Assembly (NCBI GenBank): GCA_011523825.1
Contig: WTFX01000005.1
Location: 1 to 64,000 of the forward strand
Length of the DNA: 64,000 nt
Direction of reading: 5' to 3'
DNA from: Microthrixaceae bacterium
Lineage (GTDB): Bacteria > Actinomycetota > Acidimicrobiia > Acidimicrobiales > Poriferisodalaceae
Position 1 is the stretch's first letter. Each line of letters begins with the position of its first letter. The notes under the pieces were generated by a model. It was not told the DNA's origin. It ran no database searches and saw only the letters and a program-made list of their open reading frames with translations. Shown piece by piece: positions 21,001 to 25,615 of this stretch. The position numbers were made by a program, and so were the translations under genes.

Positions 21001-23442
21001 CCTCGCCGGGTCGCTGCTGGTGACCCACGCCGCCACGCCGCCGCCCAAGTTGGTGGGCACGGGCACGAACGGGATTTCGTCGTCCCCCAAGCCCGGGGCA
21101 ACGAGCTGGTTGACGAATGAGATCCAGAACAGCTCGTCGAATCCGTCGCCGTCGTCGAATTTGTCGCGTGCCCGCATCCGGATGGTGGCACTCTGCGCGC
21201 CCTCGCCGCGGAACTCGAGTATGCGGTAGCCGACGACGGGCGCTGTGAAGATCTCCGGGAACTCGAGGGTGGCGCCCACCGCATCGTCGTCGAGCGTCAT
21301 GACGATGTCGTTGTAGTGGGCTGGGTAGGACAGGTTGGCGCCTACGCGGATCCCCCGAACCGTCCGCGCGCCCGAACCGGTCTGCTCGGCATTCAGATAC
21401 AGCGGCACGCGAACGTACTCGCCGGCGGCCAACGGGCGGCTCAGGCTCACCGTCAACGTGTCGGCCCGCGTCGCGTCGCCCTCGGCCAGCTCCTGCGACG
21501 GCGACGCCTTCGTGCCGCCTCCGGCCAGGGTTACCGTGGTGGCGTCGTCGTCGCGCACCGTCACCGCCAGATCCCGCGACACGCTGCCGTACCCGCCTCC
21601 CGCCGCGCTGTGGGTGATGGTGAAGGTGCGGTCGACTTCGTCGGTGTCGTTGTTCTTGTCGCAGTCGAAGTCCACCGTCTGGGGCATATTCCAAACGCCG
21701 GCGCCCGACGGCGTGAAGGTGAGCGTCTTGGAGGCCGTGTCGTCCGGGTTGAAGACAAAGTCGCTGGACGCGACCGTCACCGTCACGCTGCCCGTCGGCG
21801 CCTGTGCCAGCCTCACTTGGTAGCGGTAGGTGTCAGAGCTGGAGCACTGGTTCTCGCCGAGAATCTGACTGGCGGGCAGATGCCCGGTGCCGCTGCCGAA
21901 CACGAAGACGATGCCGGGGCCCGACTCCTCGAGGGTGAACTGGTAGCTGCTCTGGGCAGTGAGGCCCGCGGGGCAGCCGCTGCCCGAGCACGCCCCGCCG
22001 GCGATGGTCGGCTCGAAGTGCTCCGCCGACTGCCACCCGTTGGAATGGGTCGCAGTGCGCACCGTCACCCGCTCGCGCACCTTGTTGCCGTCGTCAGCGA
22101 CGGCGGTCACTGCCACAGTCGCCTCAGACGCCGCGGACGAGCCGCCGGTGAACACAACACTGCTGCCATTGACGGCCACCCCGGTCGGAGAGCCGTCCAG
22201 CGCGATGTTGAAATGAGTGCCGAGCGCAGCACCGTCGAAATACAGCGGCACCGTCAACGACTCTCCCGCCACCAGCCTCCGGGCCAGCCTGACGCGGAAC
22301 TTCGCCGTGTCAGACGCGTTGCCCTCCGTGGCCAAGTTGTCAGGGGTGGTCGCTGCCAGGATCTCCACCGGGGTCGGATCGTCGTCGATCACAGTGAACG
22401 GCACCGGCGGCAGGGCCAGCGCCTGACCACCCGCCGGCCAAGGATCGGGAGTGGTGGGATTCACTTGCCTGAGCCTGGACGCGTAATTGTCGTTGTTGAT
22501 GAACGCCTTCCAGGTGACCTCACCGGTGTGATCACCGCCCGGCGCGTCCACACTGTTCCGCTCTGCGTGGATGAGCATCGTGAAACTGCGCTTCGAGGTG
22601 CCGCGAGACAGCACCACCTGGGTGGACACCCGTGCAAGCGGCCCCGAATAATTCGTGTCGTTCGGCGTGACCACAGCCTCCAAGGCGATCCCCTCGGCGG
22701 GCAGCGTGTTGCCCGTGAACAGCGTCTCGTTGAAGTCGATGACCACTGCGTCGCGCGTGTCCTCGCGGTCGTTGTTGCTCGTCGACTCCAGCATCACGGT
22801 GTCGCCGTCGGTGACGGTGATCGTGCCCCGAGCCGTGCCGGTGCCCGAATAGGTCAGCGTCGTGTCCGCTCCGGCGGCGTCGTTGACGGTGACGGTCCAG
22901 TCGCCCAGCACGGTGCCCGCGGCGCAGCTCGACGACGTGCAGAGCTGCACGCCGAACGTCTCGCCGCCGCTCTCAGCGGTGCTGTCAGCGATGGCCCGAG
23001 CCTCGAAGTTGACATAGCCGTGGGTGGGAGCAGGAGGGCGAGGCTGCCCCGGCCGGCGGCGGGGCCGGGTCGCGCCCTGCAGCGCCACCTGCTCAGAAGT
23101 GCCCGGCTCGACGATGACGTTGGCGTCTGAGCGCTGAGAGGCGTTGGGGTTGGTCCTGTCCCATACCGTGAAATCCCCCGCCTCGGCCGTATACGGACTT
23201 ACCAGCGGCTTCACACGCAACCAGTAGCCGCTGTGCCCGGATGGGACGTTGGCAACCAGGAACTCGCGAGACTGGCCCTCGACAATCTCTGTGCGATGCA
23301 GCCAGGGCTCGGGATACGAAGACGGAACCTGCGTCTGCGCCTCAGCGGCCGGCACCGTCGCCGGGGCCACCACTGCGGGCACGACTGCCAGCAGCGACCC
23401 CCCCAAAGCTGTCGCCAGCGCCGAGGCAAACCAGCGGCGCAC
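1..23442 (-). CDS. Giant secreted Calx-beta repeat protein (C-terminus beyond left edge)
   Basis: A single minus-strand frame is open from GTG 23,442 to base 1 with no stop, giving at least 7,814 residues. I confirmed the frame by translation at about 23,400, 20,616, 4,764, 1,590 and 318; all lie in the same phase, and no other minus frame there gives sensible protein. GAGGAG at 23,450-23,455, seven bases before the GTG, fixes the start. A signal peptide (residues 1-35) is followed by dozens of roughly 100-residue beta-sandwich repeats with Calx-beta signatures (VTEGG..ATFTVT near the start, D-D-D near the end), repeats of the NWNTPQTVTVTA type, seven copies of an unnamed module, one fibronectin III domain and a small two-cysteine helical domain. 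Calx-beta domains bind calcium and are frequent in bacterial surface adhesins, so adhesion or matrix formation outside the cell is the likely role. The anchor, if any, lies outside the window. Composition is Thr/Val/Ala/Asp-rich and Cys-poor. Confidence 0.93.
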   Translation of the reverse strand, partial: MRRWFASALATALGGSLLAVVPAVVAPATVPAAEAQTQVPSSYPEPWLHRTEIVEGQSREFLVANVPSGHSGYWLRVKPLVSPYTAEAGDFTVWDRTNPNASQRSDANVIVEPGTSEQVALQGATRPRRRPGQPRPPAPTHGYVNFEARAIADSTAESGGETFGVQLCTSSSCAAGTVLGDWTVTVNDAAGADTTLTYSGTGTARGTITVTDGDTVMLESTSNNDREDTRDAVVIDFNETLFTGNTLPAEGIALEAVVTPNDTNYSGPLARVSTQVVLSRGTSKRSFTMLIHAERNSVDAPGGDHTGEVTWKAFINNDNYASRLRQVNPTTPDPWPAGGQALALPPVPFTVIDDDPTPVEILAATTPDNLATEGNASDTAKFRVRLARRLVAGESLTVPLYFDGAALGTHFNIALDGSPTGVAVNGSSVVFTGGSSAASEATVAVTAVADDGNKVRERVTVRTATHSNGWQSAEHFEPTIAGGACSGSGCPAGLTAQSSYQFTLEESGPGIVFVFGSGTGHLPASQILGENQCSSSDTYRYQVRLAQAPTGSVTVTVASSDFVFNPDDTASKTLTFTPSGAGVWNMPQTVDFDCDKNNDTDEVDRTFTITHSAAGGGYGSVSRDLAVTVRDDDATTVTLAGGGTKASPSQELAEGDATRADTLTVSLSRPLAAGEYVRVPLYLNAEQTGSGARTVRGIRVGANLSYPAHYNDIVMTLDDDAVGATLEFPEIFTAPVVGYRILEFRGEGAQSATIRMRARDKFDDGDGFDELFWISFVNQLVAPGLGDDEIPFVPVPTNLGGGVAAWVTSSDPARLRWFGIHDDEDAVVAADWAFTPTGLNPGDTFRLLYVTKATETAEATSGQHYDDFVRDEIIGVGHSSAAVGPVPGLLPYAWSFKAVVNVGHRPPVSVGSPYPAIKDLPDRRGQARVRNNFDSGTGAPIYWVKGAKVADDNDDFQDGSWDDEANPKHADGSAATVHSEGYWTGGAQNGSPGYSCYTTTVNDLLFLMGADKVKVGYLNVDDSTSNDGDKGPLGLREVSGTSFDSDARCMGDWGRNPPISGANPRAPRSVPADEFAEKPLYALSGVFTIDDTVTVAPAAAAEGSPVEFTVKLPAAASANITVPYTLTDGRGVGSDIAYQSAAGTGAGKDYTGTAGSVTIAAGATTGTISVATVDDDVYEGDHYFTVTLGTPTGGTDPPAASSTMGSAVGTITDLADRPTLQLSSATYKATEAGGEVTLAVVKSGKKTARPGWVTWTAAPGTAVSPGDYTAPVTGTAFLGHRRQERGFTITLATDGVSESDETFTVTLSEPEHAVLGSRTTATVTITETAIADTTVNWYRGSGTGTPAPTTLTIPEGQSQVFTVGLSRPAPHAVTIPIGLRTQHAHIQPEDYSVPSSVTFAQGEQTKAFTFAALADAADDSGTVSLFLCPQDSCPTHFTPGQTVPELAVTITEAIPGLTLTPTSLDVFANEGAATYSVRLKSQPAGNVTVAVASGDTSHVTVAPATLTFAPSGANIWSTPQTVTVTSASGAAVSDTATITHTIQNTGDTTNYPNGAVSGATVAATVVTDTRPVVTIIAADFLGVATERVAEGERSFNLQPPAPFNIIPTKGVAGIRYRFSQEGDIARVATDLGDLEVKQWTDTDGRYRSVHIHDDSVDEPNGKVIGEILPRPTRYRIGSPGRAEVLVLDNDPTTVTLARAAGSEVAEGTSHAFTITLGRGLVSGESLAVPLTFNSGTGAAVRNTDFTLACPVSLPTGVTCNNLNTASAPTVTFTGPTTGQTATSVTLALTALTDAVASETETVDIGMGTITTTSGVLDSDNNDVGLGGGVTATDNAAPLAIADALADPCPAPAAGQNNAVAVALCSPTGDVIEGGAGAAGYKDIEVTLSRALTSGETVFVPLVVTGPEREQDYTISLHPATQTGVTLAPGNLQTNPEGQALTFTAGASGATLRFTPVDNDDRSQPAVRIAFGTGSIRPQMLVGSAGLGTLSGSPLAFSIVDDEGGDIEVPHNWPLIPSGLSAGDEFRLLFVTSQQRDATSTDIEVYNDFAQVVAAGTGHASLKPYGGLVTVVACGAATDARVNTGMWTGSAWGDGSTTAASAGVPVYWLGHTKAADNYFDFYDNSWDGTRANDNRNESGVTVGTTYRVWTGCGLNGARNVHQGTPNQYLGWAQPYFGRQGPEANPLNSGSATSRSTSYPFYAISPEFTVGAPPVILSTSTLDVEADGGTATYTVKLRSAPTGNVTVAVASGDTNHATVTPSTLTFTPTGATAWNVAQTVMVTSASGAAAGDTAKITHTIQNTGDAVNYPNGLVSGAEVKVTVTPAPHGLTLSASALEVVADGGTAIYTVRLKSQPAGNVTVAVASGDTTHATVSPGTLTFAPSGANIWSTPQTVMVTSASGAAAGDTAKITHTIQNTGDAVNYPNGAVSGATVTATVVAEDRPVVTIARNSASVAEGSPAVFTVTASPAPPAGSDLVVNLAVAEGAGDYVASTDEGSGKTVTITGGTASASYSVATVDDSTDEPDGRVTVTVAAGGNAYKLGSTTSTSVTITDGEATSATLARAVGDNVAEGSAHAYTVTLDRPLVAGEVLPVTLTFAGSAVRNSDYTLACPSPLPAGVGCANLNSGTATITFTGPTASPITAVALTLSAAWETSGAALREATETVDIGLGALTSTSGTKLGGGARAEDNAASLNIVNILPTLSVSMAADNGDDVAEGASGASGRKDVTVTLGYALGSGETVTVPLRVRGAAVTTDYTFALHPAAQSGVALVTSGAYSAQSPALRFSHHSSSPTTATLRFVPVNNTDRTQPAVLIDFAAAVTATGGVPVSSSKPTGEVFFVIEDDETGDAEVPDGWALKPSAVMPAGEFRLLFVTSQRRDAAATDIEEYNRFVQRLVATGGHASIKPYAGFITVVGSTAAADARANTGMWGGSPAGYTDGSTSASSAGTSVWWLNAEKAADNYYDFYDGTWDNTATKDESGADIDTHGGGAAHLPNAVWTGSVGGGTGRDGHELGTANPQLGVPGVQGGPNNNNPLQVLSHGVGVAQPKTRTRYLYAMSPVFAVDTADGVTVSPTALSLTELHASDAEKTYTVKLDTDPGVDVTITVVSGDTDAVAVDTNSVMTGDQNTLTFTHGSSGNWGTAQTVTVRALNDADAVGEQDVEITHAATAASGAYDEIDVDAVEVDITDAGHGVIITGAPVSVKAGETAVYSVRLKSRPTGNVVIRPTSGATARATVSGDLTFTSTGDNWKTPQNVTVTGVAAGTATISHAVQTTADSANYPTTLTIADVAVTVGLPSLSVSPASLSLTEGGAAGTYTVTANEDPGAGVTVTVTVTSDDGGAARVHGPGGSAGTTATLTFVGGSGGNSNWSTPQTVTVTAVDDGDADDEDVTITHTSTATGSSGPFHQAAIASVAVDVTDAGHGLTLSASALDVFANEGAATYSVRLKSQPAGNVTVAVASGDTTHATVDTDTSTDGNQLTLTFAPSGANAWNTPQTVTVTSASGAAVSDTATITHTIQNTGDATNYPNGAVSGATVAATVVTDTRPVVTVVAETHLGVATTQVAEGQTMHSAQVPAPFGIRHTGPPGRSVQVRFRRAMEGDYARTPGHLRDFQEWISPGAGSDASIPISDDNVDEPNGKAIVTVLPRPTHYRIGSPGRAEVLVLDNDPTTVTLARVAGSEVAEGASHAYTITLGRGLVNGESLAVPLTFNSGTGAAVRNTDFTLACPMTLPTGVTCNNLNTASAPTVTFTGPSTGQTATSVTLTLTARADTVPRETETVDIGMGTITTTSGVLDSDDNDVGLGGGVTATDSAAALTITDVLPALSVSMAADNDNDVTEGASGASGRKDVTVTLGYALSGSETITVPLRVRGATVTTDYTLALHPATQNGVTLLTSGSYSAQNPALRFSAHSSNPTTATLRLVAVDNERRTQPGVIIDFHGAVAKSSFTPTVTTSGDVFFVVVDDETGPVEVPRDWALKPSGVAASGEFRLLFVTSQTRDATPRNIREYNAWIQRQVVATGHASVQPYAGFVKVLGSTEFDGQARENTGMWASSAHTDGSTSSSTDGDGISIWWLNGGKVADHYHDFFDGSWDGGADQSALAKNQAGADRGNTWVWTGSNADGSRHGTATQRLGQITPRAGRLSADQISRSFVGRANSYAFYGMSPVFQVEGVEASLAVNNSGAVTEGGTLTVTVNLGANAPSALEIPVQMRTSGSPTASTDDFTLSGSPAGTVSIAMGQNSGMLTFTAVADDIDEPVNMETLVLEFGTLPEGVVAHATDDTEVSITITDADTAGITVTETGTPVNTVVDEDGTPTATDTYTVVLDSKPLSNVTIRVTADDGTVAKVDGPDTQTAYTTTEDLVFTPSNWNTAQTVTVQGVQNIIDDPNDKRTVDVTHTVQVGDTSPDGQYTTGMDLSDHDVEVEVIDDDAQPTAVELEASISTATENGGAQTVTVTATVQGATRFGAAQTITGAISSLQDTSSVNYVDVTTSALSITIPVGAQTATSTFTLTPANDNVHETDQTVTVGGAIAPATGVTITSDTISVTNDDAAPTRIDLSVNPTTIAEAAGATTVTVTATVHGGKTFGTAKTVTVAVAGQNETNKVKFATASVSNITIGAGSATGMATFTLTPTANTFDEQNATATVSGTAPGVTTLNSATVSVTDDDASPAGITFGLSPMTIAEDGGAATVNYTLDVQTGTGGTTYGEDVVVTVAVAGSGDTNVVGFTPVADQTSTIPKGTSAQVTGSFTLTPTDDTDDEYDETVTVTATATDVHGNAIVMAPVEITITDDEDTTVTMTAPTGAVAENGGTKDVTLTLSRALAGSEAVTVPLEVVGVTVESDYTVALHGTNTGVTIDTTTSPFSSQNPALKFAAGASSAVLRFTALPNTDRTQPYTVVRYGSGVTAANLDFQTPPSGGPVGFVITDDETGDVLFPVDSDLMPTHSSIVPGNYEFRFVFATSGARDASSSDIADYDAFIRSALAEGHADIVPFAGFFKVVGSTAAADASAHASFATGDGGRPVFWMGNQTFADKVADNDAGLRGEWSNQTPYTEAGTAATANAGGYFTGSTSVGAKSANPLGSASVTLGYLSDSGSGRAPLGSGTTTANTGTRPFYGLSAVFKADRSPAVTIVPKAGGESVAEGSPAVFTVSISPAPTDPVGVTLWITDETGKPSYTNAADRSANPHLNAVTLSSTTTSADFSVNTVNDSNDEPDGGVVVRVIAAEGYIRGGNDLATVAVTDGEATSLTLTGSSAGVTEGLDKSFTLSLGRRLVSGETVTVPLTFAGTATRGTDYTFTCSGTGVTCHDLNSTAGSANPRVVFANGAQTAAIVMAAVLDANTTPVEPNETVNIGVGTPTAITGLSGGVAAPTDSAPQFSIVNRSQITLASFAQSTYTATEAAGAGRTVTVTVDYTPSALAALTIPITVTGTAVAGSGKDYTRTGGASITTAVGDTSSTITVTIADDAFDDDAETIIITLSDGANWDLGANPSTTVTITDDDSAPEVTLSASPATVAEFAGATTVTVTGTMQGTTRFEENTSLTVGIAGSGGANVVGFTAPSSVTLPIAAGAASGTADFTLTPTDDSTVESDETVTLSATEAGATVNSGTIAVTDDDSSASLSLTLSAAAGDVAEGASGAAGYKDVTVTLGSALTGSQTVTVPLTVTGVTVATDYTLALQPAAQAGVTLLTSGAHSAQNPAVRLAAGATSAVLRFTPVDNSVRTNPAVVIAYGTGSRLPSGTGVSLGTPAGSPVVFAVADDETGAIEVAGNWALKPSGVGPGQQFRLLFVTSGTRDASSSAIADYDAFVRAAAAQGHAATVPYAGLFKVLGSTAAVDASAHAGFSGSDAVAVFWLGDTAAADRVTASYPGLRGEWQNQAAPHDETGTAASVNASGYFTGSTSAGAKSASPLGSAAVSLGYLADSGSGRAPLGSGTTAASTATRPFYGLSPVFTATGVAQFAMAAASAGEDAGTVDVTVDISPAAAAAITVGYTLSGTATRGSDYSIAGVTGSSGTVTIPSGATSVSIPVAITDDAAEEAAETIILTLADGDGYTVGTNTAHTLTIGASDQASATANADGSYTVPGDWSLLPAGLQTVGQKFRLMFRTTSRWAATSTDIATYDGYVQGEAAGGSLAAILPYASQFKVVGSTNSFDIRTHLDLRDGSNWRTGIPIYWMDAAAGGAKVADDYQDFCTRDSTHSSNPRERWWKNDDLADQRDEDGTAHGDSNFPWTGSNNDCTKQSTKHLGASGSSVEKGGHADARMWGPLSTASEAKGALNSLFAMSPVFVVGSDGLLTATFAESAKSVNEDAGTVNVTVNLSQAQATAFNIGYTVSGTATEGASGDYTIANSGTVEVPALATSVVIPVAVIDDAAEEAGETVVLTLSASADSPSRYSLDEARKVYTLTIAASDLPCNGPKVGIADQFNPVAEGDGSVRLTLSVIPAAANPCTHEFAVGYTVAGGSVGAGGHPAATAGADLAASGTVTVPERALWARFDVAITDDRVAEGTESAIVSLDDLDAYTLMNHKKAQITIADDDARGLVFDPAKVAVGEGQSAHYTVKLASQPTGTVTVAIAGAGLRVADTDPGTDGDQNTLTFTGGTAGTWNTPQSVTVTAAEDDHNAADDTIALSHATSGGDYTAADSTDLQVTVADNDKVGVVITQTGGSTRAAEPSGTDTYTLRLGKRPSRTVLVTATTSDPDAALVSRFGNTFLRSRTFVFTVSTWNRPQEVTVRAVDDPFDNPNGRTAVITHRIQTTDPEYRRVTADPVTVTVADDEPAPRLSLSASTNRVPEGGTATITATLASALPRAITVPLEIDRVSAEAGDISVPSGIRIDARSLTGTATLRANQDSDDDHEHFLVDVGRLPSPVTAGDTLLVMNVIDDEHVPAPAKIACDTTGGRCEAGVLSVGEGRTRNLYLTLTQRPTHLVRADIAVTKGGADATTSPVFNLQFSTGAHSNKRLVVAGLDDTGTRALDPVEITLRFASADPFYDGKEMVLRLQVVDNDSHVRLALAQDRETLAEGASGAVRLTVTASQPLPVAVTPVIDLRTVTLGADFSDKDAVCDGCLSADGSRITLPVMRTGATVSQVVLHAADDNLVERDALIRGRLEVFNAAGTGLHVPPPLVSVDTGHNTIVLTHEDDDRLRAHVHHNEAMGYFLALNRQTEFPISVHRLRTDPALNDVKTYPAVDQTTANAAEERALERKLRRARYIPLGDSLSVYRGIVLELPEGFPLSGDWIDLGAGIEAVDLRAEVPAATSQPLGSRSALDSLAGDILYANDGAPADDRINMVIISGITETSIAVAWNEADGADGYELRWQAGGQTQPQNKRLSGTSHTITGLTAGTAYQIRVMVVKQGSVVAAKSSQTVSVTTEGTQSQQPPATPEVSVTAGAGITEGGTASFTVTASPAPAAPLAVSVSVTQSGDYAASGTTGTKTVTVPISGTVSHTVATVDDSADEPHGSVTLTVNAASGYTVSGTQGAATVAVSDDDDPSPTPAATPEVSVSAAAGVTEGGTATFTVTASPAPAAPLAVSVTVIESGEFGASTGAKTITIPTSGSVAHAVATADDGADEPDGSITLSLNRGSGYAVSPSRPAATLVVADDDDPPETPAKVCKTADTALLAEVKAKTADPWSGARPDLVETFTRAYDTMLGTDDYTVADLKARADRQTPNWQGNGPNALWQSIYAELDRLEACRGKAGTPGTPKTAAPQISVTAGAGVTEGSPASFTVTAAPAPAAPLAVVVTVTRTGDFGAAVGARTVVIPTTGSVSHTVATAGDSTAEADGTITATLNPGSAYTVSATQGTATVAVADDDAATPP
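365..630 (-). other. Small helical two-cysteine domain in the giant protein
   Basis: Residues about 7605-7693. It reads as helices rich in Ala, Lys, Asp and Leu between KVCKTADTALLAEVKAK and YAELDRLEACRG, with a Trp-containing centre (TPNWQGNGPNALW). The two cysteines sit at the two ends and could pair. It interrupts the beta repeats. I do not recognise a named family. Confidence 0.6.
1335..1615 (-). other. Fibronectin type III domain in the giant protein
   Basis: Residues about 7276-7369. The hallmarks are present: ITETSIAVAWNEADGADGYE with the core Trp and Tyr, then LTAGTAYQIRVMVV and a closing TVSVTTEG. It is the only such domain I found and marks the change from the long irregular region (about 1,630-2,500) to the last three Calx-beta repeats in the window. 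Confidence 0.85.
4590..5228 (-). repeat. Unnamed surface module, copy 7 of 7
   Basis: Residues about 6072-6285, separated from copy 6 by a single Calx-beta-like repeat. Landmarks: WSLLPAGLQTVGQKFRLMF, IPIYWMDAAAGGAKVADDY, PWTGSNNDC and LFAMSPVFVVG. Two cysteines are present (FCTRDST and NNDCTK), which could form a disulfide outside the cell. Confidence 0.75.
5600..6165 (-). repeat. Unnamed surface module, copy 6 of 7
   Basis: Residues about 5760-5948. Landmarks: WALKPSGVGPGQQFRLLFV, GHAATVPYAGLFKVLGST, VAVFWLGDTAAADRV, GYFTGSTSAGAKSASPLG and RPFYGLSPVFTATG. It pairs with copy 5 as a recent duplicate. Confidence 0.75.
8078..8665 (-). repeat. Unnamed surface module, copy 5 of 7
   Basis: Residues about 4927-5122. 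Landmarks: YEFRFVFATSGARDASSSD, GHADIVPFAGFFKVVGST, RPVFWMGNQTFADKVAD, GYFTGSTSVGAKSANPLG and RPFYGLSAVF. The WTGS of copies 1-4 is replaced by YFTGSTS, a variant shared only with copy 6. The C-terminal half is nearly identical at DNA level to 5,600-5,780, which points to a recent duplication. Confidence 0.75.
10935..11548 (-). repeat. Unnamed surface module, copy 4 of 7
   Basis: Residues about 3966-4170. Landmarks: WALKPSGVAASGEFRLLFV, GHASVQPYAGFVKVLGST, ISIWWLNGGKVADHYHDFF, TWVWTGSNADGS and AFYGMSPVFQVEG. It shows the consensus pattern most clearly and is free of cysteine. Confidence 0.75.
14262..14910 (-). repeat. Unnamed surface module, copy 3 of 7
   Basis: Residues about 2845-3061. Landmarks: WALKPSAVMPAGEFRLLFV, GHASIKPYAGFITVVGST, SVWWLNAEKAADNYYDFYDG, AVWTGS and RYLYAMSPVFAV. 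The DNA aligns well with copy 4 at an offset of about 3,360 bp, together with the Calx-beta repeats on the promoter-distal side of both copies' partners. Confidence 0.75.
14700..15750 (-). repeat. Large intragenic DNA repeat, partner of 11,340-12,410
   Basis: The stretch aligns by eye with 11,340-12,410 at a constant offset of about 3,360 bp. It covers the start of the unnamed module and the next Calx-beta repeats; for example the DNA around 11,830-11,980 and 15,190-15,340 matches at most positions. The two blocks are one higher-order unit of the giant gene duplicated in tandem. Confidence 0.7.
16818..17440 (-). repeat. Unnamed surface module, copy 2 of 7
   Basis: Residues about 2002-2209. 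Landmarks in order: WPLIPSGL, FRLLFVTSQQRDATSTD, VPVYWLGHTKAADNYFDFYD, WTGCGLNG and YPFYAISPEFTV. Cysteines occur at VVACGA and WTGCG. It shares the opening FRLLFVTSQ-RDA segment closely with copies 3 and 4. Confidence 0.75.
17930..19060 (-). repeat. Large intragenic DNA repeat, partner of 11,995-13,160
   Basis: The stretch aligns with 11,995-13,160 at an offset of about 5,934 bp and includes the shared segment around GTGTTCAGGTTGTTGCAGGT. Shorter related copies of its right-hand part (the ACGGCGCCGTTCGGGTAGTT element) occur at about 16,160 and 16,510. This is a second duplication layer within the giant gene. Confidence 0.7.
20181..20975 (-). repeat. Unnamed surface module, copy 1 of 7 (longest)
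   Basis: Residues about 823-1088 of the giant protein. The copy opens with a WAFTPTGL...FRLLYVT segment, has a GAPIYWVKGAKVADDNDDF core and DGSWDDEAN, then WTGG, and closes with PLYALSGVFTI. It is about 60 residues longer than the other copies because of insertions, and it carries two cysteines (GYSCY and DARCMGDW). I do not recognise a named domain. Confidence 0.75.
23338..23442 (-). other. Signal peptide of the giant protein
   Basis: Residues 1-35 start VRRWFASALATALGG and continue as an Ala/Leu/Val-rich hydrophobic segment ending in a small-residue AEA site before Gln36. This is a standard export signal. The RRWF near the N-terminus loosely resembles a twin-arginine motif, but a Sec signal explains it equally well. 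Confidence 0.85.
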
Positions 23443-23449
23443 AGCCGAG

Positions 23450-23455
23450 CTCCTC
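23450..23455 (-). promoter_or_regulatory. Ribosome binding site that sets the giant gene's start
   Basis: GAGGAG with seven bases to GTG 23,442. The alternative TTG at 23,457 overlaps this site and would place the signal peptide behind extra residues, so the GTG is preferred. Confidence 0.8.
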
Positions 23456-23496
23456 AAGACCGCCGACCCGCTCTAGCGGCTGGACCGGGCGGCCAG

Positions 23497-23509
23497 CCCC
23501 CCCCCCCCC
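23497..23509 (-). repeat. Homopolymer of 13 C (13 G on coding strand) upstream of the giant gene
   Basis: Thirteen consecutive C lie 55-67 nt before the GTG start. Tracts of this length slip during replication and are known phase-variation switches of surface genes in other bacteria. On its downstream side (coding strand) a 6-bp inverted repeat, GGCTGG 23,478-23,483 with CCAGCC 23,493-23,498, partly overlaps the tract. I could not place a convincing -35/-10 pair, so whether the tract affects the promoter or the leader is open. Confidence 0.9.
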
Positions 23510-23661
23510 AACTTCGCAGCAGACGAGGGGTGCTCCAGCAAGTGTTTCGGACGTCTCCGGGGGCGTTCACGCGCATCATCTTACGCACTTGTCTCGGAGC
23601 CCCGACACACCGGGCGGCGGCAGGCCCAAGACGCCGCAGCAGGCTTCGGTAGTCTTCGGAC

Positions 23662-23889
23662 ATGGGCGCAGCCGACCTTGCAGCAGCGCACCGCGCCGCA
23701 GCCGAGCTCGTCAGCGCCGTCTCGGACCTGACGCAGCATCTCGCCCCAGGCGCACAAGAGGCCACGGCAGCCTCGACCGGGGACCTGACCGAGCACTCGC
23801 AACCACCAGTGGAGTTCGCCGAAGGACTGGTCCAGATACTTGCAATAGGCCGGACATTTTCTTCCGTTCGGTCCCCAAAAATGGTGTAG
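23662..23889 (+). CDS. Possible small protein, unknown
   Basis: 75 codons. The first 30 residues (ADLAAAHRAAAELVSAVSDL) would form an amphipathic helix, but the rest is unremarkable, there is no clear ribosome site, and the stop lies inside the probable promoter of the next gene. It may be spurious; it would otherwise be a third, leading member of the AbiE-like unit. Confidence 0.22.
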   Translation: MGAADLAAAHRAAAELVSAVSDLTQHLAPGAQEATAASTGDLTEHSQPPVEFAEGLVQILAIGRTFSSVRSPKMV

Positions 23890-23892
23890 GAT
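23887..23892 (+). promoter_or_regulatory. Candidate -10 element, near-leaderless start
   Basis: TAGGAT ends six bases before ATG 23,899. It fits the TANNNT -10 form of actinobacterial promoters, where transcription can start at or next to the start codon. The same bases contain AGGA seven bases before the ATG, so an ordinary ribosome site is the alternative. Confidence 0.35.
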
Positions 23893-23898
23893 GAACGG

Positions 23899-24759
23899 AT
23901 GGGCAGCGCTTCAGGTTTGTCGGATGCCGAGGCTGCTCGCCGTATTGCCGATGTCAGGTGGCCCGACAAGGTCACATGCCCGCGTTGCGACAGCTTGCGC
24001 GTCTCTGAGCGGAAGCGGCAAGGCCGAAGGTGGCCGCAGTGGCGGTGCCGCGACTGCCGCAAAGAGTTCACCGCTATCACAGGCACCGCCATGCACGGCA
24101 CTCGAATGTTGCCGAGAGCCGTTGAGCGCCAGATGGCAAAAGCACAAGAGAAGCCGTACCTGCCGCCAACGTCTGGTGACGCGGGATCGACAGGCAATCA
24201 AAGCGAGAACACAGCGACAAGGCTCAGCGCTGGGGCGAAGAGCGTGCTGAACGCGCTCCGCCAACGGCCTGCTGGAGCCACCTGCGGGAAGATCGCCGAA
24301 ATCGCTGGAATCTCCGAGAGGCACACCCACAGGATTCTCCACGACCTCTCCGCTGCCGGCATTGCGCTCAGCCGCGTAGGCGTGGTGCGCGACGGGCACA
24401 GGTCTACGACCAAGAGGCTCTGGGAACTGACCTACACGCCTGAATGCGTGAGACTGCTCGGGCATCTCCCGCGTCGTCGGGCGCCCATGTCCGAACCGCC
24501 TGTCCCCGGCACTGTGCCCCACCAGTTCTGGCCGCTGTTTTGGTCGGGGGCGGAAGGCTCAGAGCTCAGCCTCGAACACGATGAACTGCATATCGCAGGC
24601 ACGCTTATCGGCAGCGCAGACCTGTCAGCTGAAGCGTGGGCGCTACGCGCCGTCTCCGCTGAGACATTGGAGGCGCTGGCAGGAACACGCGGCTACGACA
24701 CAGGTGATACAGCCAAGCTGATCCGCTCTGAATTACGGAGTCGGCGTGTCGCTGCTTGA
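23899..24759 (+). CDS. Zinc ribbon (IS1595-type) fused to winged-helix domain, likely antitoxin/regulator
   Basis: 286 residues. Residues 10-66 match the N-terminal zinc ribbon of IS1595 transposases: RWPDKVTCPRC (C27, C30), WRCRDCRKEF (C50, C53) and TGTAMHGTRM. The transposase catalytic domain is absent. Residues about 108-175 form a winged helix-turn-helix (AKSVLNALRQRPAGATCGKI, then AGISERHTHRILHDL). The last 95 residues are unassigned. The gene overlaps the next by 14 bases, so the two are translationally coupled. In AbiE systems the gene before AbiEii encodes AbiEi, a winged-helix antitoxin that represses its own promoter; position and fold suggest the same role here. The zinc ribbon in this position is unusual. 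Codon use is less GC-biased than in the neighbours. Confidence 0.75.
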   Translation: MGSASGLSDAEAARRIADVRWPDKVTCPRCDSLRVSERKRQGRRWPQWRCRDCRKEFTAITGTAMHGTRMLPRAVERQMAKAQEKPYLPPTSGDAGSTGNQSENTATRLSAGAKSVLNALRQRPAGATCGKIAEIAGISERHTHRILHDLSAAGIALSRVGVVRDGHRSTTKRLWELTYTPECVRLLGHLPRRRAPMSEPPVPGTVPHQFWPLFWSGAEGSELSLEHDELHIAGTLIGSADLSAEAWALRAVSAETLEALAGTRGYDTGDTAKLIRSELRSRRVAA

Positions 24760-25615
24760 CGGCTGCGAGCACCTACTAGCACGAGGGCTGCGCGACCTTT
24801 GGCCCCTTGCCGCTGAGTTGGCGCGCAAGACATCAGGTCGCCTAATGGGGGGGACTGCGCTTGCGCTGCACTTGCGGCACCGGGCAAGCGAGGACTTAGA
24901 CATAATGACCCTCAAGGACTTCTCAGGCGTGACACTGCGCCGCCAGATGCACAAGCACCTTGACAGGGCATTTCCCTCTGGACACCAATACGACTTAGAA
25001 GTTCTGACCAGCGAACAAGGTGGCTTTTTCGTTCTGGTCGGGGGAGTCAAAGTGGATGTGTTCCAGGCAAGGCCCTCAGAGGAACGGAAACCCTCTCAGA
25101 TGAGATGGCTTGACGAGCCCATCACAGTTGACAAGGTGCCTATCGGGTCTGTACCAGACATCCTGGCAACCAAGTTGGACGTAATCATGTATCGGCCGAA
25201 GCTGCGCGACTACATCGACATCGCTTCGATAGACCTGATGAGCAACTATTCACTGGAAGACGGGATCGAATTCTATAAGCGCAAGTTCGGCTATGTCGAT
25301 GACCCGAACCCCCGCATCCTCAAGCGCATTGTCGGACTGCTGGCCGAACCTGGGCAGATACACGCAGACCCGCGTTTTGAGATTCGGCGGGACGATGTAT
25401 TCACACACCTGGAGCAACGGGCACGGCATCTCCTCGAATACATAGCAGACACTTCCGACAAGGAGTTCCGCAAGGCTGTCGATGCCGCCAGCGATCTTGG
25501 AATGCCTCGTCTAGCGCCCGTCCCGACCAACAGATGCGGGGCGTGGATGCCGAGGGCTCGCGCCTACTGCGCGCTGCCTCCTCACGAGAAGGGCCCGCAT
25601 AGAACCCTTCGTTGA
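24746..25615 (+). CDS. AbiEii-like nucleotidyltransferase (putative toxin)
   Basis: 289 residues from GTG 24,746. The nucleotidyltransferase signature GGTALALHLRHRASEDLD (G35, G36, D50, D52) is complete and the third acidic residue is D104 in VKVDVF. DILATKLDVIMYRPKLRDYI corresponds to the Lys- and Asp-containing motif that follows in AbiEii/DUF1814 proteins. AbiEii toxins transfer nucleotides, reported for related enzymes to target tRNA, and arrest growth. The length is normal for the family. The last 26 residues add a possible zinc site (C264, C275, H280, H285). Part of a two-gene unit with the preceding winged-helix gene. Several lower-GC stretches suggest acquisition by transfer. Confidence 0.82.
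   Translation: MSLLDGCEHLLARGLRDLWPLAAELARKTSGRLMGGTALALHLRHRASEDLDIMTLKDFSGVTLRRQMHKHLDRAFPSGHQYDLEVLTSEQGGFFVLVGGVKVDVFQARPSEERKPSQMRWLDEPITVDKVPIGSVPDILATKLDVIMYRPKLRDYIDIASIDLMSNYSLEDGIEFYKRKFGYVDDPNPRILKRIVGLLAEPGQIHADPRFEIRRDDVFTHLEQRARHLLEYIADTSDKEFRKAVDAASDLGMPRLAPVPTNRCGAWMPRARAYCALPPHEKGPHRTLR

Follow-up and report, generated by a model that had tools for sequence, protein, structure and literature searches.

Homopolymer-based phase variation has been described chiefly in cultured pathogens and in commensals of humans. Is the run of 13 cytosines that lies just upstream of a giant secreted-protein gene in an uncultured member of the Acidimicrobiia a switch of this kind, and, if it is, on what does a change in its length act? 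The window, by which we mean the whole stretch of 64,000 nucleotides that was analysed, holds the following features at and around the tract.

23497-23509, minus strand: run of 13 C, which reads as G13 along the giant gene's coding strand and is proposed to be a slipped-strand length switch; G15 in the orthologue
1-23442, minus strand: gene for a giant secreted protein containing Calx-beta and fn3 domains, beginning with the GTG at 23442 and truncated by the contig start after at least 7,814 codons
23338-23442, minus strand: signal peptide region (VRRWFASALATALGGSLLAVVPAVVAPATVPAAEA), cleavage point judged by eye
23443-23496, minus strand: tract-to-start stretch of 54 nt (55 nt in the orthologue), partly conserved as GCTAG.GC.GGTCGGC..T.TTGAGG
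23450-23455, minus strand: ribosome-binding-like GAGGAG, 7 nt before the GTG, recognised from the sequence
23473-23475, minus strand: in-frame TAG stop between the tract and the start codon, at the same place in the orthologue (locus L169)
23510-23522, minus strand: short stretch of conservation immediately upstream of the tract, reading TGCTGCGAAGTT in the window and CATGCGGCGAAGGC in L169

The tract and the giant gene downstream of it

Exactly 13 cytosines are counted at 23497-23509, and they lie 55-67 nt ahead of the GTG start codon (23442, minus strand), just as an earlier reading made from the letters alone (the sequence-only reading) had described. The next-longest run of C or G within the 64-kb window measures 7 nt. 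The same reading had allowed for an assembly artefact in the count; the number may indeed be off by one or two, the assembled 13 being a consensus that could be one off or represent a mixed population, but the existence of the tract is firm, given an orthologous G15 in an independent assembly. That G15 belongs to the closest orthologue, L169, in which the segment between tract and start is partly conserved and whose homology with the window ends about 12 nt upstream of the tract, with none clear farther upstream between these two species. A second short run, at 23398-23404 of the window (G7 on the coding strand), falls inside the signal-peptide codons of the giant gene; no such run occurs in L169.

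The frame of the giant gene is free of stops from 23472 to the window edge on the minus strand, and the SLLAVVP motif in the signal peptide region is invariant across the aligned family. The protein matches the Pfam families Calx-beta (E=1.3e-31 and 7.2e-24) and fn3 (E=2.3e-10); these matches lie farther on, the first 1003 residues giving no Pfam match at 0.001. A self-BLAST of the protein for internal repeats returned nothing below the set E-value, and we place no inference on it.

Homologues of the N-terminal part are found in seven of the ten genus genomes, and all 12 of those that are N-terminally complete are preceded, at a distance of no more than about 230 nt, by a G or C tract of 9-23 nt, which often ends 53-57 nt before the start. 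The tracts consist of G in some homologues and of C in others, and some homologues have two. The nearest named records for the N-terminal part all come from metagenome-assembled genomes (MAGs) of uncultured Acidimicrobiia, namely COS4_bin_1 (83% identity over the matched part), COS4_bin_33 (66%) and the jk18/p16 bins, and further copies of the giant gene from named MAGs likewise carry upstream tracts. Two relatives of the protein, at L177 and L188, occur in MAGs labelled Pseudomonadales and are either misbinned contigs or cases of horizontal transfer. Tract length is not constant among relatives, a point on which the sequence-only reading had made its proposal depend: it is 13 in the window against 15 in the orthologue, and runs from 9 to 23 among related copies.

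A genus-wide set of long tracts

The tract is far from solitary. The genome to which the window belongs (3.32 Mb in 31 contigs) contains 18 C/G runs of at least 10 nt, and their lengths form a bimodal spectrum, with four runs of 10 nt, none of 11, five of 12, eight of 13 and one of 14. An order-3 Markov estimate built on the sequence of this genome predicts 0.02 runs of at least 13 nt over 3.3 Mb, and nine are present; for runs of at least 12 nt the figures are 0.10 and 14. The earlier judgement that a 13-base run is very unlikely by chance is thus borne out. Moreover, runs of C11 or longer occur in all ten of the other genomes of the genus, and none was detected in 26 of the 28 genomes of the same family outside it. 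The window tract is one member of a genus-wide set, which comprises about 6-26 long tracts per genome in one uncultured Acidimicrobiia genus and almost none in sister genera, so that the gain can be placed on the tree. The sequence-only reading had proposed a slipped-strand phase-variation tract; the comparison lends that proposal good support, and with some 18 such runs in the genome and more throughout the genus the reading understated its case.

Base composition and the loss of mismatch repair were both considered as reasons why the genus differs from its family, and both were set aside. High GC is unsupported as a reason, since exact C6 runs have a similar density in several sister genomes that lack long tracts. 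MutS was found neither in the own genome nor in the genus nor in any surveyed family genome, and NucS is present in all but one of the surveyed family genomes, the own genome included. In Mycobacterium smegmatis, NucS leaves indels of 1-2 nt unrepaired (PMC11551767), so that, with MutS lacking as well, slippage in such tracts should go uncorrected; given that the sister genera possess the same repair genes, however, repair does not account for the restriction of the tracts to this genus.

Long C tracts also prefer a particular context, A-Cn-G, irrespective of orientation. When the runs of relatives are counted as independent, A precedes 55% of long tracts against 29% of C5-6 runs, and G follows 73% against 55%; the joint context surrounds 39% of long tracts and 15% of C5-6 runs (own genome, L051-L191 and L243-L282). 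At seven loci (L058, L060, L137, L164, L244, L248 and L268) several long G and C runs are clustered within 100-250 nt, unlike the single tracts found elsewhere, and these clusters could be degenerate G-rich arrays or assembly trouble.

Placement and targets of the tracts

Codon-usage segmentation of 127 loci from the own genome and the genus provides a view of where the tracts sit. The loci were chosen for the tracts that they hold, with controls drawn from the same neighbourhoods; the positions of gene starts are approximate and related genomes do not count as independent samples, which makes the p values for placement and targets indicative only. Most tracts are intergenic. Of the 116 tract clusters, 77 are found 1-300 nt ahead of a coding segment and 6 within its first 120 nt. 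These 83 (72%) at gene 5' ends compare with 21% for positions drawn at random from the same loci (odds ratio 9.3, p=8e-30). Intergenic regions between two 3' ends are avoided, with 4 of 112 tracts against 15.8% expected (p=4e-5; COS4 loci included). The targets are distinctive as well, in that 49% of them have hydrophobic, signal-peptide-like N-termini, compared with 11% of control genes (p=8e-16), and 29% are long (at least 800 codons), compared with 7%.

In the own genome the targets include two Peripla_BP_6 substrate-binding proteins, a xanthine/uracil permease, an FtsX/MacB-type permease, an IclR regulator, a PAS-domain protein, a ResIII helicase-type restriction protein and several secreted proteins. 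Across the genus they comprise, among others, Calx-beta, SAF, subtilase, LRR and fn3 proteins, type ISP specificity domains, N6/N4 DNA methylases with HNH domains, and Mrr/ResIII. The outcome is a catalogue of genes that are candidates for switching, those for giant secreted proteins and for restriction-modification among them, in organisms that have not yet been grown.

Other tracts of the own genome lie inside an open reading frame where one length in three would give the full-length protein, the arrangement of a translational switch. As assembled, three of seven in-frame tracts are ON (C20:65297, C20:9087 and C31:467471) and four are OFF (C20:61980, C31:408743, C9:45118 and C27:312707). Two of the seven, C20:61980 and C20:65297, fall in signal peptides. 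At C9:45118 a periplasmic-binding-protein domain is split at the tract, with profile positions 1-61 before it and 68-338 after it. Annotation of these genomes, it should be cautioned, will label genes in the OFF phase as pseudogenes.

Several coding tracts deserve mention in their own right. In two genes an upstream tract is accompanied by another in the signal peptide (L025, 9087-9096 and 9229-9240; L029, 12744-12756 and 12870-12882), and such pairs would give two-step control. In L096, L123 and L153 an orthologous coding tract of C10, C15 and C12 directly follows an ATG, and the C-terminal half of a type ISP restriction specificity domain comes after it; as assembled, none of the three is in frame with that ATG, and the first half of the domain is not called upstream. 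A conserved ResIII-type gene carries a coding tract at 8050-8059 of L021 and in the orthologues L072, L141 and L155, with G10, G13 and G10 at one site in three species, and in L155 (genome G001) a C13 stands close by, with a frame change. Finally, an unexpected switch target appears at 2525-2535 of L090 (genome G003), where a C11 coincides with a frame change near the N-terminus of FtsK.

Length differences at orthologous sites and promoter geometry

Length differences recur at other orthologous sites with conserved flanks. Other orthologous groups show lengths of 12/11 and 12/11/13, and the upstream regions of L173, L176 and L178 are near-identical, differing mainly in two tracts of 15/13/12 and 12/14/7. 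The first of these two tracts forms the spacer between a -35 box, TTGACT (TTGACG in L178), and a -10 box, GATAAT, and the spacer measures 17, 16 and 15 nt. A comparable geometry is seen at C20:5043 in the own genome, which reads TTGACG-12 nt-TACAAT, and in its sister-genome orthologue L264, which reads TTGACG-17 nt-TACTCT (spacings counted by hand). In this pair the tract ends 50 and 54 nt before the start, by hand count from the alignment, and the corresponding distance for the window tract is 54 nt.

Over the whole collection, a TTGAC box stands directly upstream of 13 among 258 distinct tracts, with about 5 expected. The -35/-10 match score shows no enrichment over all tracts, and a general architecture of -35 box, tract and -10 box was accordingly discarded; only the upstream TTGAC box is enriched.

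How the window tract may act

Taken together, these comparisons lead us to place the window tract, with high confidence, in what is predicted to be a functional, length-variable set. The genome's roughly 18 tracts would very probably switch surface-protein, transporter and DNA-restriction genes on and off at random. For the window tract itself, a simple-sequence contingency locus that alters the promoter or leader of the giant gene, as part of the genus-wide set, is the likely reading of the sequence comparison.

The mechanism that we envisage is as follows. Replication slippage would add or remove C:G pairs at high frequency, and in a lineage without MutS-type repair the slippage loops would stay. 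The resulting change in length would alter promoter spacing or geometry, or less likely the leader, and would set the output of the giant protein on, off or at graded levels. Elsewhere in the set some tracts would serve as -35/-10 spacers, some would shift the frame within signal peptides or coding regions, and some would act at the ribosome-binding site; combined, they would furnish each cell with a different mix of surface proteins, transporters and restriction systems. We infer that switching is reversible within a strain, that it affects transcription, that promoter rather than leader is its site and that the cell benefits.

Control of the reading frame was rejected for the giant gene, because the in-frame TAG between the tract and the GTG means that a change in length cannot shift the frame of the protein. 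We favour promoter spacing with moderate confidence, since the distance from the window tract to the start matches that of the C20:5043 pair, whose promoter geometry is visible. A search of 23300-24000 and of the surroundings of the window tract yielded no sigma-70-like promoter pair, high-GC actinobacterial promoters being poorly predicted, and no terminator either.

The main rival to promoter spacing is a tract that forms part of the transcribed 5' leader and acts, through its length, on translation or RNA stability and not on transcription. The failure to find promoter hexamers around the window tract speaks for it, and so do the location of the conserved sequence, which lies between tract and start, and the presence at ribosome-binding sites in the own genome of other tracts, 3-14 nt ahead of a start codon. 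However, three sibling upstream regions have their tract as a promoter spacer, and the coding strand carries both G (43 cases) and C (56 cases) at similar distances, a pattern ill-suited to an effect of RNA structure or anti-Shine-Dalgarno pairing that depends on one letter. Leader control is a possibility to be entertained, though an unlikely one. As a general cause, a single-letter RNA effect such as a G-quadruplex is improbable, given the use of both letters.

Alternative explanations for the set

A less probable explanation, to which we give little credence, is that the tracts are neutral, homopolymers having grown wherever the harm is small in a slippage-prone, GC-rich lineage. The lack of MutS and the intergenic location of the majority of tracts speak for such neutrality, and so do the tracts of Cutibacterium acnes, which appeared slow to change and bound to clades (PMC4746626). 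Yet sister genera with the same repair genes and a similar density of short runs have no long tracts, and the avoidance of 3'-3' intergenic regions weakens the idea of passive tolerance in intergenic DNA. The bias toward secreted and long proteins, the occurrence of tracts inside signal peptides and conserved coding regions, and their persistence at orthologous sites also speak against neutrality.

One may also conceive of a dedicated, genome-wide phase-variation programme, in which long C/G tracts were gained in one Acidimicrobiia lineage and kept in the A-Cn-G context, on either strand, at gene 5' ends for the combinatorial switching of giant secreted proteins, nutrient uptake, restriction-modification and regulators. 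We regard this as speculative and improbable; if it were true, the preferred flanks would suggest that the tracts arise or persist through a specific process, and not through passive slippage alone.

It is very unlikely that the tract marks a recombination or rearrangement joint that swaps new upstream regions onto giant genes, although the homology between window and orthologue stops some 12 nt beyond the upstream edge of the tract, an IS1595-type transposase zinc-ribbon gene lies 390 nt away and tracts of C. acnes are found at rearrangement sites (PMC4746626). Other orthologous groups keep their homology well upstream of the tract.

Homopolymer counts are error-prone and tracts cluster at contig ends in draft relatives, but it is hardly credible that faulty assembly or sequencing accounts for the tract or for its length. 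Orthologous tracts occur in assemblies with both SPAdes-style and MEGAHIT-style contig names, and sister genera assembled as drafts have none; an error of one or two bases in the count is possible and would leave the conclusion as it is. The excess at contig ends in draft relatives (17 of 119 tract clusters within 200 nt of an end, against 1.8 expected) is only suggestive, fitting length heterogeneity in the sampled populations and also poor sequencing through homopolymers.

Relation to known systems

The closest parallels to promoter spacing come from Neisseria, in which the promoter homopolymers of porA, opc and fetA sit between the -10 and -35 elements (PMC2791445). As there, a homopolymer stands upstream of a surface-protein gene, and in sibling loci of our set it forms a -35/-10 spacer of 15-17 nt; unlike there, no -35/-10 pair was found around the window tract, the phylum is different and the present system is known from sequence alone. 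The distal repeat of Neisseria nadA, a TAAA tetranucleotide with a known repressor and IHF, lies upstream of the core promoter, changes the spacing of regulatory sites and gives graded expression (PMC2791445). The window tract may resemble it as a repeat in such a position and differs in being a homopolymer for which no regulator is known.

Among actinobacteria, C. acnes has 54 tracts of variable length, 96% of them G/C; two thirds of the intergenic ones lie upstream of genes, some within promoters, surface-protein genes are among the targets, and others produce frameshifts (PMC4746626). Their lengths followed phylogenetic clades, which the authors read as slow change and not as active switching (PMC4746626). 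The likeness thus extends to the host phylum, the G/C tracts upstream of genes, the surface-protein targets and the frameshifts, whereas tracts in C. acnes can be short (5-7 C in a promoter example) and vary by clade, and those described here measure 10-23 nt and belong to an uncultured Acidimicrobiia genus. In Gardnerella the median genome holds 20 G/C tracts, of which about 70% fall in the 300 nt preceding an ORF and about a quarter within ORFs, with adhesin-like targets and in vitro length variation shown for one (PMC11287997). This actinobacterium shares with our genus G/C tracts that are mostly upstream of ORFs and sometimes inside them, but tracts of 8 nt or more were counted there, A/T tracts are more numerous and the species are human-associated. 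In Bifidobacterium breve, pili are switched by G-tract slippage of an intragenic ON/OFF kind, demonstrated by maximum depth sequencing (PMC9187656); actinobacterial host, G-tract slippage and surface structures are common to both cases, but the window tract cannot act on the reading frame. Phase variants are also reported for Mycobacterium tuberculosis (PMC11898584).

The sequence-only reading had held that such switches are scarcely reported for this kind of actinobacterium, a statement that these four examples from the phylum qualify. A literature search on phase variation in Acidimicrobiia or sponge symbionts, with most subscription papers outside its reach, found nothing relevant. The mechanism is known, other actinobacteria included, and the lineage appears to be new.

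A neighbouring gene pair

One further observation concerns the DNA on the far side of the tract. On the plus strand, at 23899-25615 of the window, a gene for an AbiEii-type nucleotidyltransferase, the toxin of a type IV toxin-antitoxin system, is overlapped at its start by the frame of a protein that combines an IS1595-type transposase zinc ribbon with a helix-turn-helix. The zinc-ribbon/helix-turn-helix protein may be an unusual antitoxin partner of this toxin.
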